Shown: piece by piece, positions 1-6,590 of the stretch
Position numbering within the stretch: position 1 is the first letter of the stretch
How the letters are laid out: every line of letters begins with the position of its first letter
Source of the DNA: Propioniciclava sinopodophylli
GTDB taxonomy: Bacteria; Actinomycetota; Actinomycetes; Propionibacteriales; Propionibacteriaceae
Length of the DNA: 64,000 nt
Assembly (NCBI RefSeq): GCF_004324755.1
Contig: NZ_SDMQ01000004.1
Coordinates: 62,001-126,000, forward strand
Reading direction: 5' to 3'
Made by a program: the position numbers and the translations under genes
The notes under the pieces: generated by a model
What the model was told of the DNA's origin: nothing
The model's database searches: none
What the model saw: only the letters and a program-made list of their open reading frames with translations

Positions 1-532
1 CCACGTGCTTGTACCAGATGGAGTTCCACGACTCCGTTATGTCTGCACTCTTCTCGTAGATCGACGCAACGACGTCAAGTGCGAGCGTCAACGAAGCAGC
101 AGAGGTTTGCCAGCTGCCTTGTTCAATCACCGTCGACAACTCGGCCTGGATCAGGTTCAGGAGGGCCTCGCCTAGTCGAGCCAACGGGAGGAGTTGGGAC
201 TGCTGACGAGGGAACCCCGGCCCCACGGCCTGCCTGTAGGAACCATCAAACGAAGCGAGATCGACCCCGTTCCCGCCAACACAAGCGAGGCGGTCACCCT
301 TCCGGTACTGAATCGCATTCGTTCGGGAAACCCGCGGCAGGCGGTTATCGGAGAGGTCCTCCTCTTCCGAGATGAGGATCGCGTAAGGCGGCGACGCGGG
401 CCGCTCTTGATTGGCGGCGCACACGATGGACTCGGCGAACGAGCGCTCCAGATCACTGGGCAGTTGCACCACCAAGAGTCCGCTCTGACCAGCGCATACT
501 TGCGCGATTGCCTGTGCGACGTAGGAGGCCAT
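1..532 (-). CDS. Third gene of putative defence operon, N-terminal part only
   Basis: An open frame begins at ATG 532 and continues without a stop to base 1, so the gene runs off the window; 177 residues are visible. The start lies 2 nt after the upstream stop (TAG 537-535) with a GGGGAG ribosome site, so translation is coupled. The visible part (MASYVAQAIAQVC...) has no recognised motif and reads like the N-terminus of a much larger protein. By position it corresponds to DptH, a very large ATPase, in dptFGH-type operons, but the diagnostic domains would lie outside this window. That assignment is inference; only the coding potential is firm. Confidence 0.75.
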   Translation of the reverse strand, partial: MASYVAQAIAQVCAGQSGLLVVQLPSDLERSFAESIVCAANQERPASPPYAILISEEEDLSDNRLPRVSRTNAIQYRKGDRLACVGGNGVDLASFDGSYRQAVGPGFPRQQSQLLPLARLGEALLNLIQAELSTVIEQGSWQTSAASLTLALDVVASIYEKSADITESWNSIWYKHV

Positions 533-534
533 GA

Positions 535-1911
535 CTACTCCCCTTCCCCAAATGGGCTAGCCACTCGGACCCCATGGTCCGCATCGGCACTTCCTCGTGC
601 GAGACCCGCCGACTCAAGCAGCCGGACCAGTTCCGAGACAGGCGGCCGCAGCCCCAGCCGGGCCAACTCCTCAACGATCCTGCCCACATGGTTGGACGCG
701 CCCGGCGCGGGCGCGGCAAGGCCCGCCACCATGGCAACCCATTCAGTCCCCGGGTCTAGCAGGGTGACATTGGTGCCACGCGGAACCAAGAGCCCATAGT
801 GGTCAGACTGGTCGCGTCGAACGAGGGCGTAGAACACAGTTTCGTAGACGTTCTTCAAGGCGCTCGGGCGCGAGCTCTCGGACAGCGCGGCCTTGGCCTC
901 ATTGAGGAATGCCGGGTTCGAGGCCCAGCCCCGGCCGGAGGGGTCGCCTTCAACCACGGCCCAGCGGGCCATGACGTTTCGAAGCCGCCCTCCCTCATCG
1001 ATTCTGCGCCTCATAGCTGGCCTGACGCTGCGCGAGCTCGGTGGGAGATAGGCGGCCGGCCAAGGGAGCAACTCCGGTTGACCCATATCCAAGGCATCCG
1101 CCAGTGTCCTGCTGCTGAGGATGCCCTGGAGGACGGACCGGTACCTCTCCGCCTCCCACAGGAATCCAAACGCCAAACCCATACGCAGGGTGGTGGTTGC
1201 CCAGTCGATCCAGACGCGCGGCGGGAGAGCGTCAACCCATTCGTTGCTGGTCAGCTTCACCCACGAGTCATGCAACCAGCCGAAGGGCGAATTGGGATAG
1301 GCCCCACGAAGGGAGTCAACCTCAGCTCTGGCGACCTGAGGGCGTTCACGATACTCCCCATAGAGTTCCACGAAAGCCGCATCCACGCGCGCGAGGACGG
1401 AGTCGGTGTCTACTCTCCGGCTTGCGGCGGATAGCCAGCGGGAAGCCATCGTGGGGCCGTCGCTTTCAGAGGACGGGGAGCCCATTGCGAACATCGCTTC
1501 CAAGATGGCTGCGTAGTTCACCGGATTGGCAAGCCCCGTCATACCCGTCGTGTCTTGGAGGAGCGCCAGGGCTGGGGTCATGGGACTTGCCGCCTGAACC
1601 TTGGCCCGAGTGGGCCGAACACCGGCGATGCTGTTGAGGAATGCCTTCGGTACGACGTTGCCTTCGAGTTCGTGGCTGATACCAGCTTCGGTGAGGGCGT
1701 CGCCGAACTTGACCAAGGCGTCACCAGTCGGCCGAGTTTCCTCACCCTTTGTCTTGGTGGAGGTCCGGTCAACCACTTGGTACTTGCGCCCTGCCGAAGT
1801 GCGAACGTCGGCGTACTCGAGGACTTCCCATGCGAGCGCCGAGATCAGTGTCTCTGCAGAAGGGACGTACTGAGGTCGGTTGAGGGGGAGAACCAGCGGG
1901 ACAGCGTTCAA
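535..1911 (-). CDS. Unknown 458-aa protein, middle gene of putative defence operon
   Basis: The TTG start at 1911 follows GAGGAG by 6 nt, and this ribosome site overlaps the stop of the upstream ATPase gene (1924-1922); longer open frames upstream would overlap that gene. The protein begins MNAVPLVLPLNRPQY and has no signal peptide or membrane segment. The last 60 residues (HVGRIVEELARLGL...) could form a winged-helix-like unit. No catalytic motif is recognised. Its place between a P-loop ATPase and a coupled third gene, and its size, match DptG in dptFGH operons, but residue-level similarity is not obvious by eye, so function is unassigned. Confidence 0.8.
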   Translation of the reverse strand: MNAVPLVLPLNRPQYVPSAETLISALAWEVLEYADVRTSAGRKYQVVDRTSTKTKGEETRPTGDALVKFGDALTEAGISHELEGNVVPKAFLNSIAGVRPTRAKVQAASPMTPALALLQDTTGMTGLANPVNYAAILEAMFAMGSPSSESDGPTMASRWLSAASRRVDTDSVLARVDAAFVELYGEYRERPQVARAEVDSLRGAYPNSPFGWLHDSWVKLTSNEWVDALPPRVWIDWATTTLRMGLAFGFLWEAERYRSVLQGILSSRTLADALDMGQPELLPWPAAYLPPSSRSVRPAMRRRIDEGGRLRNVMARWAVVEGDPSGRGWASNPAFLNEAKAALSESSRPSALKNVYETVFYALVRRDQSDHYGLLVPRGTNVTLLDPGTEWVAMVAGLAAPAPGASNHVGRIVEELARLGLRPPVSELVRLLESAGLARGSADADHGVRVASPFGEGE

Positions 1912-1921
1912 CGTCGGCTCC

Positions 1922-3841
1922 TCAGTCGGTTTCGACAGAAATCTGGTCGTCACGCATCCCGTGCTCGACCGCCAGCGGGGGGTTCTGCGCCAGCCTGCTA
2001 GACACAAGCCGTCGAGCCCGGAACCGCTCAACACGCGGTTCAGTCTGCTCCCGAGCCTCGGTCATCCCGAGCCAATCGTCCGAGCAGGTCATCGCCTCCC
2101 TCAGGAGGTCGAAGTCGAGCAATACCGAACCAATGGGCCCGCCGTCCTCCTTGACGGTGAGGTGCAGCGCTTCGCCCTCCCTTCGAGTCCCAAACTGGAA
2201 CGCGCTTGCTCGAAGTGCAAGCGTGGGTTGCGCCACATATCCCAAGATCGGCTCGGTTCTGCTGGCGTAAAGGGGGACGACCGGATTGGAGTCCAGCGAG
2301 GACGGGTCGCGCCGAGGGCTCAACAGGGTCCGCAGGGGGCCACCGAGAACGTCAGGAAGCGTCGGGCTGAGTGCCCACGCCCCCGTCCAGGCCGTCACGA
2401 CCTCGCGGAACGCAGGCACGCCCATGGCGGCGGCATACATGCGGGTGAGGTACCTTCCGTACCAGGCCGTTGCCGACGCCCGCTGCTCGGGCTTCGCGGT
2501 GGTGCAGTAGTTCCGGAAGGCGAGGTCCACACTTCGGTCGAAGGGCTGAATGACGCCGTGTCGCTCCCGAGGCATCTCCTGCTCGAGGCTGTCGAGCGGC
2601 GAACCCCCAAGTGCTGTGCTGCTGAACGCATCGAGAACGGGCGAAGCCCAACCACCATCCGGTCGGGCTATGTTGCCGGGGCGTGCGTCCAGAAGCGGGT
2701 CGATGCGACGCGTAAAGCGGAGAACCGGGTCCTGGGCCATGCCCGGGTCGCCCGTCTCCATTCCACCGAAGAGGCCGACGAAGCTCCGCAACTGTGCGAG
2801 CTCCTGAAGCCGGGCGAAGGTGTCCTGCTCATTGGCGTCCTCAGGGGGCATCCGATCGGCGATGTAGGTAGTGGCTGGAACCGGGCCCATGCGTAAGGGC
2901 AAGTCGCCGAAGATTGCCCTGCAGATGGATCCCCAGAGCTCGCGGTAGGTGAAGCGCTCTCCAAGTGCGATCTCCGCTCCGCGCATGAGCTGAAGATGAC
3001 CGCATAGGACTGCAGGGTCTTGCAGTGCTTGGATGTTGGCGCGAACAGGATCCCATTCGGGCGCCACCACGGACGGCCACGTCAACGAGTGCGCCACCTT
3101 GCTGAAGAGGATGCCCGCCGGGGTCTTGGCACGGTCGACCTTGCTGAACTGACCAAGCCTGTACTTCTTCGGCGCCAGGTCCCCACCAGAGAAGTGCACT
3201 TGCGGCTTCTCTTCGAACAGTGAACAGGTGTCGATCAGGACGGCGGCCAGAAGTGCGGAAGCAACTCCGTCCTCACCCACCAGCGCCCCCACCCGCAGGT
3301 AGTCCTGAGCCTGGATCGCCTCGACAACATGCGCTCCGTCCCCTGCCGTGAGCCAATCAGCTATCTGGTGTGCACGCGAACCGCCGCGGCTGGTCGCCGC
3401 ATCTGCCAAGATCCCCCGGTTGATGCACGCGATGAGGTGATCCCCACGGTCGATGGCCTCCTGGATGTCCCCCAGGATGCCGTCACCCTCCGTAGCGATG
3501 GTCGCATCATTGATCAAGGTCAACGGCCCCGCGGGCGTGCGGTAGCGGTAGGTCCTGTGGGCCAGGTCGCTGTTCTGGGGGTCTATCTCCTCGAGACCAG
3601 CAACCAAGCTAGAGGCAGCCTGCGACTTGCCGCCCCCGGGCCCCCCGACGAAGAAGAGGAACCGGCGGGGACCATCAGCCCGCAGCCCGTCGACGAACCA
3701 CTGGCACGCCTCTTCCACACCAGCAGCAGGCGGACCCATGGCCGCCGGCGGGGCCTTCAAGTTTGGATCTGCAGCCACCTTGCTGCCGCCGGTAGCCAAT
3801 GACCAGACGACCTCGACATCGAGACCGGGGGTAGGTTCCAC
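1922..3841 (-). CDS. P-loop ATPase, DptF-like, first gene of putative defence operon
   Basis: This 639-aa cytoplasmic protein starts at GTG 3841, 8 nt after GAGGAG. A Walker A motif GGPGGGKS sits at residues 66-73, preceded by a hydrophobic strand (FLFFV). About 60 residues later comes a strand resembling ACINRGILADAA, the layout I associate with DptF-type ATPases, where an 'I.IN.G.L' strand follows the P-loop. The remaining ~450 residues are unfamiliar. It heads a three-gene operon with 1-12 nt gaps and is divergent from a C5 methyltransferase, so it probably powers a restriction or defence complex. No DNA-sulfur-modification genes are visible. ATPase identity is firm; family assignment is inference. 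Confidence 0.85.
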   Translation of the reverse strand: MEPTPGLDVEVVWSLATGGSKVAADPNLKAPPAAMGPPAAGVEEACQWFVDGLRADGPRRFLFFVGGPGGGKSQAASSLVAGLEEIDPQNSDLAHRTYRYRTPAGPLTLINDATIATEGDGILGDIQEAIDRGDHLIACINRGILADAATSRGGSRAHQIADWLTAGDGAHVVEAIQAQDYLRVGALVGEDGVASALLAAVLIDTCSLFEEKPQVHFSGGDLAPKKYRLGQFSKVDRAKTPAGILFSKVAHSLTWPSVVAPEWDPVRANIQALQDPAVLCGHLQLMRGAEIALGERFTYRELWGSICRAIFGDLPLRMGPVPATTYIADRMPPEDANEQDTFARLQELAQLRSFVGLFGGMETGDPGMAQDPVLRFTRRIDPLLDARPGNIARPDGGWASPVLDAFSSTALGGSPLDSLEQEMPRERHGVIQPFDRSVDLAFRNYCTTAKPEQRASATAWYGRYLTRMYAAAMGVPAFREVVTAWTGAWALSPTLPDVLGGPLRTLLSPRRDPSSLDSNPVVPLYASRTEPILGYVAQPTLALRASAFQFGTRREGEALHLTVKEDGGPIGSVLLDFDLLREAMTCSDDWLGMTEAREQTEPRVERFRARRLVSSRLAQNPPLAVEHGMRDDQISVETD

Positions 3842-3971
3842 GCTCTTTGCTCCTCTGGGGTGACTTCGCCCAGGCTACCTGGCTAGGGCTGGCGGTGCGG
3901 GGCAAGCCTGCCCCGAACCTCTGAACGACCCGGCGGCAAGACCCTAACGGGTTGCTCCCCAAGCGGCTGGC
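3842..3971. promoter_or_regulatory. Divergent promoter region between ATPase operon and methyltransferase
   Basis: This 130-bp gap separates the oppositely oriented ATPase operon and methyltransferase genes and must contain both promoters. No good -35/-10 pair or clear operator palindrome was recognised by eye. Shared control would fit a modification/restriction pair in which methylation must precede restriction. Confidence 0.5.
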
Positions 3972-5273
3972 ATGTACCCGCAGGCGTTGTCAGAGTTTGC
4001 CGCTATCCTGGCCCGGACGATCGTTAGGACGGGTGGCGTGGGCAGTTTGGTAGACCTCTTCGCGGGCTGTGGAGGGATGTCGTACGGCATGGAGTTGGCT
4101 GGGTTCCACTCCATCTACGTGAACGAGCTGAGCCCGGATGCCATGTCCACGTACCGGAGGAACCAACCGCAAGGATCCCTGGCGCTGGATGAGGACCACC
4201 AGTCCCATGACATCCACGAGCTCAGCGGAGACCCGGGGCGGCTACGCGAATTGTCGGAGCACCTACGCCAAGTAGCAGGCGGCGACGTTGACTTCGTGAC
4301 CGGTGGCCCACCATGCCAAGGCTTCTCTCGGATCGGGCACCGTCGCACGTTCAAGCTCGACAAAGAATCGATCCCAAGCAACCACCTCTACAAGGAGATG
4401 GCGACTGCAATCGAGGCCATCCGGCCTAAGGCCTTCATCTTCGAGAACGTGCAGGGCCTGATGTCAGCCCGCTGGACACCCAGCGGCAGGAAGGGCGAAA
4501 TCTGGGAGGACGTGCAGGACACGTTCGGCTCTGTGACCGCCGACGGAGAACCCTATGTCGTGGGACCTGAACTAGTTCATGCAAGGCAGTTCGGAGTCCC
4601 TCAAAACCGCCCACGAGTCCTCATCGTGGGTGTGCGAGCGGACGTTGCACGGGCCGCGGGCTTCGAAGGCAAATGGCTTCCGGAAGATATGGAGACAATC
4701 ACCCCTCCCCACCCTGAGGAACTGCTCGGAGACCTATGCGCAAGCGAGTGGACATCTGGAGGTTCGACCGACTTCTACGCCACGAACCCCCTGAACGAGA
4801 CCCAGACCGCTCTTCGGACCCGCCGTGACGGGACGGTAATGGGGAAGGGAACCCCTCTCACAGAACAGCAGTTTTCGAACCATTCCCTGAGGGTTCAGGA
4901 GCGCTTCCACTTGATCCGGTCGAACAAGGCCATCCCGAAGGAGTATCAGACTAGGAAGTTCAACCAGCGCATGATCCCGCGCCGATGGCCTGAGAGCGGG
5001 CCGACGATGACCGTTGCCTCGTTGCCTGACGACTTCGTCCACTACGCCGAGAACCGCGCACCTACCGTCCGTGAGTGGGCGCGCTTCCAGGGGTTCCCGG
5101 ACTGGTACGAATTCTCGGGGCCGCGCACCACGGGCGGGCGACGGCGGGCCGGCGACCCCTCTCTGGGCGTGTGGACTCGAGACCTCCCCAAGTTCACCCA
5201 GATCGGCAATGCTGTGCCGGTCAACCTAGCTGAATGGCTCGGGAAGCATCTGGGGCAGACGCTCAACCTCTAG
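3972..5273 (+). CDS. C5-cytosine DNA methyltransferase
   Basis: This 433-aa Dcm/HhaI-type enzyme transfers a methyl group from S-adenosylmethionine to carbon 5 of cytosine in DNA. Motif I is DLFAGCGGMSYGM (residues 28-40); motif IV GGPPCQGFS carries the catalytic Cys115; motif VI ENV, motif VIII QNRPRV, the late RFQGFPDWY region and motif X QIGNAVPV are all present in order. The target-recognition region lies around residues 240-360. Length is normal and no key residue is missing. Local GC (about 60 %) is lower than in the flanking chromosome, suggesting transfer. Divergent placement from the ATPase operon suggests it is the modification arm of that system; a solitary methyltransferase is the alternative. 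Confidence 0.95.
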   Translation: MYPQALSEFAAILARTIVRTGGVGSLVDLFAGCGGMSYGMELAGFHSIYVNELSPDAMSTYRRNQPQGSLALDEDHQSHDIHELSGDPGRLRELSEHLRQVAGGDVDFVTGGPPCQGFSRIGHRRTFKLDKESIPSNHLYKEMATAIEAIRPKAFIFENVQGLMSARWTPSGRKGEIWEDVQDTFGSVTADGEPYVVGPELVHARQFGVPQNRPRVLIVGVRADVARAAGFEGKWLPEDMETITPPHPEELLGDLCASEWTSGGSTDFYATNPLNETQTALRTRRDGTVMGKGTPLTEQQFSNHSLRVQERFHLIRSNKAIPKEYQTRKFNQRMIPRRWPESGPTMTVASLPDDFVHYAENRAPTVREWARFQGFPDWYEFSGPRTTGGRRRAGDPSLGVWTRDLPKFTQIGNAVPVNLAEWLGKHLGQTLNL

Positions 5274-5297
5274 TCAGCACGCCTCTTGCCGGGCCTG

Positions 5298-6590
5298 TCA
5301 GCATCTAGTAATCGCGGTGGGCAGATCGGACAACCGCGCCATGCTGCCGGTGTCACCACTCGGCCCGTTGGCTCGGCGCACCACGAGATCCCCCATCAGC
5401 TCGGGCGTGAGCTGCATCCCCTCGCCGGTGCCGTTGTCGTCCATGATCTCGAGCTGGTTCCCGGAGTTCAGATCCACCAAGGTGACCGTGCGGCCTCTCA
5501 GGACCAGTGCCGTGTCGCCTTCGACGGTGACAATGTCGGTGAGCGGGGCCCTTCCAGATCGGGCGCGACTCTCCGGTCACCACGTCGGTCAGGACCAGTT
5601 CCTCGGTGCCGTCGACCCTGTCGAGGTCGTGGATCACCTCGTTGCCTCCCTGGAACCGCCAGTAGTCGCCGGGGGAATGAAGGACAGGACGGTCACTTCC
5701 TCGAGGGTGTGGCGGTCGTACGCGACCCACGTGCCCTCCGGCTTGAACAGGATGAGGTCCCCCAACAGGATCGGACGACCCGATGCCTCGACCGCCAGGA
5801 CGACCTCCGGCGTGGCGTCCGGGTCGTCCACCCGGATCTGGGTCAGGCGGTAGCGCTCCGGTAGGGCACCGTCCTCACGGACGAAGTCGACCCAGCGCAG
5901 AACATCGCCGTCGACCCAGAAGGCCTCGGGTCCGATGACGTCCCGTTCCTCGACCAGCAGCCGAGGTTCGGCGCCAGCGCCCTCCTGCACGAAGAAGCGC
6001 CACCACCGCGGACTGCTGGACGACCACCGCTCCCCGAAGACGATGCGCTCCTCGGTGAGCTCGGCGAGCAGGGGCATCGCTCCTTCGGAAACAGGGGGCA
6101 GGGCAAACGAATCGCCCCTCCAACCCGTGGGGGAAGACGCGCTGCACGAGGCGTCCATTCACTTGTCCACCGAGGATGACCGACTCACCGCGGACACCCA
6201 CCAGCCGGGGGTTGGTACCCAACTCCGACGGCAGCTCCAGGGGTGCCGTGAGCGCCTCGCGCCACGCGTCCCGGATCTCCGGGCAGGACAGCGTCGGCGT
6301 CACCACGGGCGACGGGGTGGCGGACGGGGTGGGCGTCGGCGTCCAGCTCGCTGTTGGTGGGGGCGCTGTCGGGGACGCCAGCCGTCGGTGAGCAGGTTGC
6401 GGGCGACGGTCCGGATCCAGGCGTCGGGGTGGGGGTGGCGTCCGAACTCGCGGCGCTTGGTCCGCGCCCGGACGCAGGCCTCCTGGACGGCGGCGGCGGC
6501 GGCGTCCGGGTCGCCCCACATGGCCGTCACGTGCCCGACGAGCACGGGGTATCGCGCGGTGAAGTACCGGTCGAATGCCTCCGCGTCCAT
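5298..6590 (-). pseudogene. ECF sigma-factor N-terminus joined to remnants of its membrane/extracellular partner
   Basis: From ATG 6590, about 80 residues match the start of a sigma-E-family ECF factor (FDRYFTARYPVLVGHVTAMWGD..., then WIRTVARNLLTDGWRP). Near 6370 the coding signal jumps frame into a Pro/Thr-rich linker and an extracellular-type domain (SCPEIRDAWREALTAPLEL...). It then shifts near 6130, 5680 and 5550, ending at TGA 5300-5298 (...DLPTAITRC). Sigma region 4 and the partner's N-terminus are absent, so a deletion has fused two formerly adjacent genes and further frameshifts followed. The intact layout can be inferred from the similar locus at 11.9-13.0 kb. It is not expected to give a functional protein. 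Confidence 0.8.

Follow-up and report, generated by a model that had tools for sequence, protein, structure and literature searches.

At the left edge of a 64,000-nucleotide stretch of Propioniciclava sinopodophylli DNA (the window; C38:62001-126000 of a host assembly of 3.07 Mb in 43 contigs), a gene for a C5-cytosine DNA methyltransferase adjoins, in divergent orientation, a minus-strand operon of three genes, called F, G and H in the following. The cassette is probably a translocation-coupled restriction system of the Dnd/Ssp FGH kind that is gated by 5-methylcytosine (m5C), a reading to which we give a probability of about 0.7. So far, FGH machines of this sort have mostly been met as partners of DNA sulfur and not alongside a simple base methyl mark. 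The methylase, presumed to be the self-marking enzyme, has 433 amino acids (aa; 3972..5273, plus strand) and is separated by a divergent intergenic stretch of 130 bp (3842..3971), which presumably holds the promoters of both transcripts, from the F-like subunit, a P-loop protein of 639 aa (1922..3841, minus strand). The G-like subunit (535..2034, minus strand) is encoded in an open reading frame (ORF) of 499 aa that can be aligned with its relatives from about residue 42, which leaves a conserved part of about 458 aa with a probable start near 1911 and fits the 458-aa middle protein that a first-pass annotation of this DNA had described. Just the start of the H-like subunit lies in the window (1..532, minus strand; 177 aa), and extension of the contig to the left recovered the full gene of 1772 aa (L002:11214-16532), which reaches 4786 bases beyond the edge. 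The ORF set of the first-pass annotation, a methylase with F, G and an edge-cut third gene, is hence present as it was described.

The recurrence of this gene set in 17 further loci, found by searches with F proteins of the family, argues for more than a chance association. In 18 of 18 loci of the F family, the window included, the operon has a C5 methylase as a neighbour, and the linkage proposed from a single locus is kept elsewhere. The loci come from genomes of the same class and of an Arthrobacter family, from Rhizobiaceae and Pseudoalteromonas plasmids and from IMG/VR contigs; one of them (L030) is cut such that methylase and F alone are seen, and the methylases of two others (L055, L058) were completed beyond the edge fetched at first. 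The family is sparsely distributed: full-length relatives of F occur in 2 of 394 class genomes (the host itself and G048; the same two among 396 phylum genomes), in 1 of 245 genomes of the host's order (the host) and in none of the six same-genus genomes listed, in 2 of 186 genomes of the G048 family (G048 and G814), in 9 of 295 genomes of the Arthrobacter family, in one GTDB contig, in two IMG/VR contigs and, with the Shinella F as query, in 4 of 72,556 plasmid records. Window F as query had no match in the plasmid collection, a scan of viral contigs with the window-type F alignment returned no relative, and the Pseudoalteromonas F, the sole F tried against the phage collection, was without a match there. 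These tallies leave out the weak matches L005-L007, L014 and L047-L050. Weaker plasmid hits, namely H13, H14 and H2 (a second accession of the plasmid of H3), are likewise outside the set of loci analysed. The class-level candidates L005-L007, opened as L009-L011, were rejected, their ORFs showing no FGH layout. As a control, we used all seven plasmid records returned by a search with canonical DptG; in these dptFGH loci (24.5-27.3 kb each), a C5 methylase was detected by profile or motif in 0 of 7. The annotation of the control loci includes dnd modification genes in three, shows none in two and is lacking in the remaining two; three plasmid stretches with an H-type gene only (L022, L023, L025) were kept apart from this control.

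The position of the methylase relative to the operon is variable. It lies upstream and codirectional in eight loci (L008, L036, L053, L016, L017, L019, L029, L030), downstream and codirectional in seven (L015, L051, L052, L054, L056, L057, L018), convergent after H in two (L055, L058) and divergent in one, the window. In a tree of the restriction endonuclease (REase)-HerA part, for which the program warned of long branches (L060, L058, L036 and L018 among them), all 17 H proteins with a linked methylase cluster in a single group, separate from canonical H (support 98/100). Within that group, the H of L055 joins those of L056 and L057 (98/97) and the H of L058 joins the Arthrobacter group (100/98). 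The methylase tree conflicts with this: the methylase of L055 pairs with that of L058 (97/95) and then with that of L036 (100/99). In the same methylase tree, the window enzyme pairs with that of G048 (100/99). We read the conflict as a sign that methylases have probably been exchanged between modules with their chemical class unchanged, which would imply that m5C is needed rather than one given protein.

The third gene of the operon is predicted to be DptH-like over its HerA/FtsK ATPase, and thus is not the short protein unrelated to large ATPases that would have spoken against the first-pass proposal. Residues 1420-1768 of window H match the DptH structure PDB 7es4 (E 2.1e-48), and about the same C-terminal stretch (~1420-1768) matches the PADLOC DndH models (best 7.6e-61), with a Walker A motif at 1439; the ATPase also matches the PADLOC model for mad8 of the MADS system (4.4e-17), which covers a similar ATPase. 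Ahead of this motor lies a D..ExK nuclease motif (D1170/E1187/K1189). When 23 H proteins (17 methylase-linked, L060 and five canonical) are aligned, all 23 show the pattern D...E[IV]K and 22 the full form PxE[IV]K, the exception being L060. The order is that of DndH, in which an active REase precedes the HerA/FtsK domain according to PMC10853773. Window-type and proteobacterial-type H profiles join at 100% over 1044 columns. The NCBIfam model TIGR03237 (1256 positions, the N-terminal part of DptH) did not match window H at E 1, unlike the canonical H of L020, which scores 1386.6 bits against it. Two side observations concern H. The Pseudoalteromonas H (L018:9746-15119) is encoded in two genes (164 and 1623 aa) and is maybe interrupted or truly split. 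Three Vibrio plasmids encode DndH-type ATPases (L022:11150-14086, L023:59-1801, L025:11363-14245) in stretches where profiles detected no F, G or C5 methylase, the upstream part of L023 being cut by the record end; that of L022 adjoins mobI and conjugation genes, and these ATPases may be transfer proteins or captured relatives.

Window F carries the Walker A motif GGPGGGKS, followed by NDAT and then CINRG, which we compare with the hallmarks of DndF given in PMC10853773, namely a Walker A, an acidic residue after strand 2 and an Asn in the place of the Walker B. Patterns written for the three hallmarks fit 18 of 18 family F proteins, with placement judged by sequence only; the F of L060 fails the Walker A and the Walker B pattern. 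The window F, which is 40% identical to that of G048, belongs to no Pfam, NCBIfam or PADLOC family, one NCBIfam kinase match at 0.08 being all that was returned, and the NCBIfam model TIGR03238 was not matched; no assignment of the ATPase to a known non-defence family emerged. Profile comparison joins window-type F (12 sequences) to proteobacterial-type F (6) at 99.0% and to canonical DptF (7) at 90.5% (E 1.4e-6, 205 columns), the latter falling to 68.2% with three sequences on each side. As an aside on F, two Arthrobacter-family members (L051:7928-10399 and L057:7940-10513) have an N-terminal portion of ~100-120 residues that matches the PADLOC candidate PDC-S36 (2.7e-31 and 3e-26, respectively), a domain with no PADLOC match in window F. 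Window G, ending in an ARGSADAD motif, is 37-38% identical to its relatives and fell into no family of the libraries scanned (Pfam, PADLOC, NCBIfam and others), DUF7169 appearing at 0.025 only; window-type (12) and proteobacterial-type (5) G profiles are weakly linked (85.1%, E 6.2e-6).

The window methylase belongs by its sequence to the C5-cytosine class (Pfam PF00145 DNA_methylase, 5.7e-54; PADLOC MTase_II; TIGR00675) with DLFAGCGG, GGPPCQGFS, ENV, QNRPR and GNAVP in place, so that five of five motif patterns pass. Its identity is 55% with the G048 methylase, 34% with the Arthrobacter methylase, and 47-48% with two methylases whose annotated neighbours are endonucleases of the MvaI/BcnI family (39-40% over the stretch presumed to recognise the target). 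Because of the resemblance to these endonuclease-adjoining methylases, the sites of MvaI and BcnI being of this form, a CC(W/S)GG-like target is possible, though as a guess. The mismatch endonuclease Vsr usually accompanies m5C methylases, and its presence in at least 8 of the 18 loci (L015, L051, L053, L016, L017, L019, L029 and, convergently, L008) points to real m5C; the figure is a lower bound, since several other stretches end close to the methylase. Among these loci, the Pfam Vsr model was run on L053 only. Two neighbouring features were seen beside such cassettes. A gene of ~585 aa follows vsr in two Rhizobiaceae cassettes (L016:15767-17527 and L017:15862-17610; alike by eye) and is a possible accessory effector. 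Opposite the Arthrobacter cassette, two large genes of 1067 and 1028 aa (L015:3066-9352), the first of which starts, by eye, like a sacsin/GHKL-type protein, suggest a further defence system.

A second association of the same kind was found when PADLOC SspF was searched in 221 class genomes. The one weak match led to a neighbourhood (L060, in G066:C51), outside the 18 loci, with the order methylase-F-G-H-Vsr (L060:7414-17598). Its F, G and H match the SspF (3.9e-29), SspG (4.1e-8) and SspH (2.8e-23) models, and L060 is a putative SspFGH-like module with a C5 methylase and Vsr, of a separate FGH lineage; no search for sspBCD was made in its genome. Regarding sulfur genes in the family proper, DndC was found in 0 of 9 sources (three genomes, namely those of the host, G048 and Arthrobacter, plus four plasmid records and two virus records). 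For DndD, 4 of these 9 returned matches, all of them weak and below the cut-off, and the host genome was not among the 4.

In the proposed mechanism, host DNA would carry m5C at a short motif, placed there by the C5 methyltransferase, and the three operon products would assemble, on the model of DndFGH, into a DNA-loading complex. Translocation would be driven by the HerA/FtsK-like motor in the C-terminal part of H, and the D..ExK domain of this subunit would nick or cut DNA; a methylated motif would hold back translocation or cleavage, and unmethylated invading DNA would be damaged. An FGH engine that elsewhere is partnered with phosphorothioate would here use a base methyl mark. The proposal of m5C as a mark on the same engine follows from DndFGH and SspFGH acting that way with phosphorothioate: as described in PMC11662687, the complex of DndF, G and H introduces nicks as it moves along DNA, and its ATPase is repressed by phosphorothioates; according to PMC8092258, SspFGH damages unmodified DNA and is toxic when its mark is missing. 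The relatives differ in how far they depend on single genes: none of the three SspFGH genes could be spared (PMC8092258), and restriction was not wholly lost on deletion of individual dnd genes (PMC12707154). We infer from this kinship the protection by m5C, the formation of the complex, the antiphage action and the kind of DNA attacked.

A number of observations weigh against the reading of an m5C-gated FGH system. The 18 loci are not independent (three are from Rhizobiaceae and two are near-identical and Arthrobacter-type), they were selected by likeness to window F or to relatives of it, and seven of them also supplied the sequences for the methylase profile. Complete methylase motif patterns are present in 14 of 18; among the other four, two run over the locus edge, and one motif is missing in L018 and two in L030. 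Beside the window cassette itself, no Vsr match was found in L002 or the window. The canonical control is small (seven loci, plasmids only, with no H detected in L061); canonical DptF was found in 0 of 236 same-class genomes in a search that also missed its own control genomes, and there is consequently no same-class control. The DndC search covered 9 of the 18 loci, six as plasmid or virus records rather than whole genomes, and the first-pass remark that sulfur genes are not seen holds for the host genome as to DndC, with DndA, DndB, DndE and SspBCD not searched for. Kinship to the canonical proteins is also uneven. Among three canonical F proteins tried, the strand-2 pattern was missed by all three (the stretch reads LDAT by eye in each) and the Walker B pattern by one, from which it follows that our F patterns are stricter than the published hallmarks. 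Proteobacterial-type F joins canonical DptF at just 41.7%, and the 100% match of H profiles to canonical DptH (5) spans only ~355 C-terminal columns. For G, whose DndG counterpart has three winged helices, comparison with canonical DptG (6) gave 0.4% and 0.1%, hence no detectable kinship. AlphaFold models made from few sequences were unusable for both F and G (predicted local distance difference test, pLDDT, 41.2 and 38.6).

Four other explanations are to be weighed against that backdrop. The methylase could be a bystander that shares an island with FGH, the latter serving as a stand-alone counter-invader complex: defence islands are rich in methylases, the stretch around a Massilia dptFGH (L021) shows neither a C5 methylase nor any gene annotated as dnd, and DndFGH is portrayed in PMC10853773 as mostly decoupled from modification and acting alone. 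A bystander would hardly adjoin 18 of 18 operons, in four arrangements and with exchanged types, when canonical loci have it in 0 of 7, and the separate SspFGH-like module L060 also comes with a methylase and Vsr; we regard this explanation as unlikely. A dependence of FGH on the methylase could also be other than through m5C, with the enzyme serving as antidote or as complex component in target recognition or silencing, and methylases are complex subunits in many systems resembling restriction-modification. DndH itself is said to include inactive methylase and target recognition domains (PMC10853773). A specific protein contact of this sort is hard to reconcile with clearly different methylase groups (34% identity; the conflict of trees) serving related FGH modules, and both the intact catalytic motifs of the window enzyme and the Vsr genes of several loci point to the methyl mark, which makes a component role distinctly improbable.

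The reverse polarity, wherein FGH attacks methyl-marked DNA in a Type IV-like fashion and the methylase has another role, draws on the existence of modification-dependent nucleases. It is compatible with the suggestion in PMC10853773 that standalone FGH senses several signals. A resident methylase would then mark the host's own DNA for attack, however, and canonical DndFGH and SspFGH attack unmodified DNA (PMC11662687 and PMC8092258), for which reasons we consider the polarity very improbable. Chance neighbourhood of a type II restriction-modification remnant and an unrelated operon of a transfer ATPase might be argued from the likeness of the window methylase to those adjoining MvaI/BcnI endonucleases and from the adjacency of an IS21 pair; the gene set is conserved across unrelated bacteria, and such kept linkage contradicts the idea, leaving it barely credible. 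The m5C-gated FGH system thus remains our preferred reading of the cassette.

The setting of the cassette is that of an inserted block. The GC fraction is 0.61-0.66 across the four genes and 0.68-0.74 outside, which bears out the lower GC ascribed to the block on first inspection; an istA/istB pair of the IS21 family (L002:8386-10436; GC 0.66-0.69), with paired repeats at its ends, lies directly downstream of H. The right border (5274..5298) was located by blastn against the sibling genome G1301, in which similarity resumes at window position 5298 (21298 in the host's own locus), 25 bases past the methylase stop. Identity to G1301 along the right flank is 91-98% (90.8% over 1085 bases from position 5298), and on the left flank only parts of a peptidase gene align (74-90%). 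The sibling, the one genome of six from the same genus in which both flanks were found, keeps the order of the flanking genes but has another insert between them (L068, G1301:C1:400501-420500), comprising a C5 methylase, Vsr (1.4e-10), MzaB (1.1e-108), MzaC (5.3e-210) and MzaD (1.4e-18). That G1301 holds an Mza cassette at the chromosomal site of the window methylase-FGH agrees with the island setting proposed at the outset and suggests that the site is a hotspot where defence cassettes centred on a methylase take each other's place.

The discrimination of self from non-self by DndFGH and SspFGH is an unsettled matter, to which the cassette could be of use. A single methylase gene would replace a multi-gene sulfur pathway, and its mark is accessible to bisulfite or nanopore mapping; with a mark that is switchable by one gene and mappable, the question of gating becomes directly testable. 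The reading would also suggest a role for F and G genes labelled 'hypothetical' that sit beside cytosine methylases and Vsr on plasmids, the F and G cores being unnamed in the libraries scanned (PADLOC, NCBIfam, Pfam). A wider proposition, which we advance tentatively and at somewhat less than even odds, is that FGH is a mark-agnostic translocating nickase with a swappable marking partner, that at least two of its lineages took up m5C methylases, with swaps within the group, and that these modules would form an ATP-dependent class of restriction-modification distinct from types I and III.

Among known systems, the Mza cassette of G1301 is similar in combining a cytosine methylase with a multi-gene, restriction-like cassette at the same chromosomal site, and differs in that no window protein matches the MzaB, MzaC or MzaD models. 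The nearest concept known is MADS, which reportedly relies on methylation for self-recognition and has nuclease and ATPase genes within a set of eight (mad1-8) that includes kinases. The PADLOC mad7 model matches canonical DptG (2.7e-61), a hint that a Dnd-like G is also part of MADS. The window module consists of one C5 methylase and three genes, and only its H matches a mad model (mad8), F and G matching none; for the methylase, no mad model was among the best 25 of 59 PADLOC matches listed. In the CxC ABC-ATPase/DndE systems, for which PMC10853773 reports cytosine methylases, cytosine methylation was proposed to replace phosphorothioate, yet that proposal concerns the DndDE core on the modification side rather than the restriction arm FGH, and no cytosine methylase is reported with DndFGH in the parts covered. 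The system had been put forward as undescribed, and this holds to the extent that the literature searched, with supplements and most subscription journals outside its reach, contains no C5 methylase dedicated to DndFGH or SspFGH; the CxC-DndE systems and MADS are related ideas.

SspFGH, the partner of single-strand phosphorothioate, shares with the window module the set of three genes, the Walker A in F and the FtsK-like end of H (PMC8092258), and differs in that window F, G and H match no PADLOC SspF, SspG or SspH model at E 1; the same source describes SspFGH as without sequence homology to DndFGH. The first-pass comparison with a DptFGH-like restriction arm stood in part. It is borne out by H, which is DptH-like, and by F with its DndF hallmarks, and not by G, which is unlike DptG, nor by the NCBIfam DptF, DptG and DptH models, which remained unmatched. 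Likeness to DndFGH/DptFGH extends to the F-G-H gene order, similar subunit sizes, and the D..ExK motif with the HerA/FtsK-like motor in H. The differences lie in a C5 methylase alongside instead of DndABCDE, in an unrecognisable G and in a methylase-linked H group set apart from canonical H. Coupling to phosphorothioate genes is not strictly defining, because many DndFGH are themselves decoupled from modification and stand alone, 'lacking an inbuilt modification module' (PMC10853773). With H and F related to DndFGH and G not joinable to DptG, the window module is, as judged from its predicted proteins, a distinct branch and a relative of DndFGH rather than a member.

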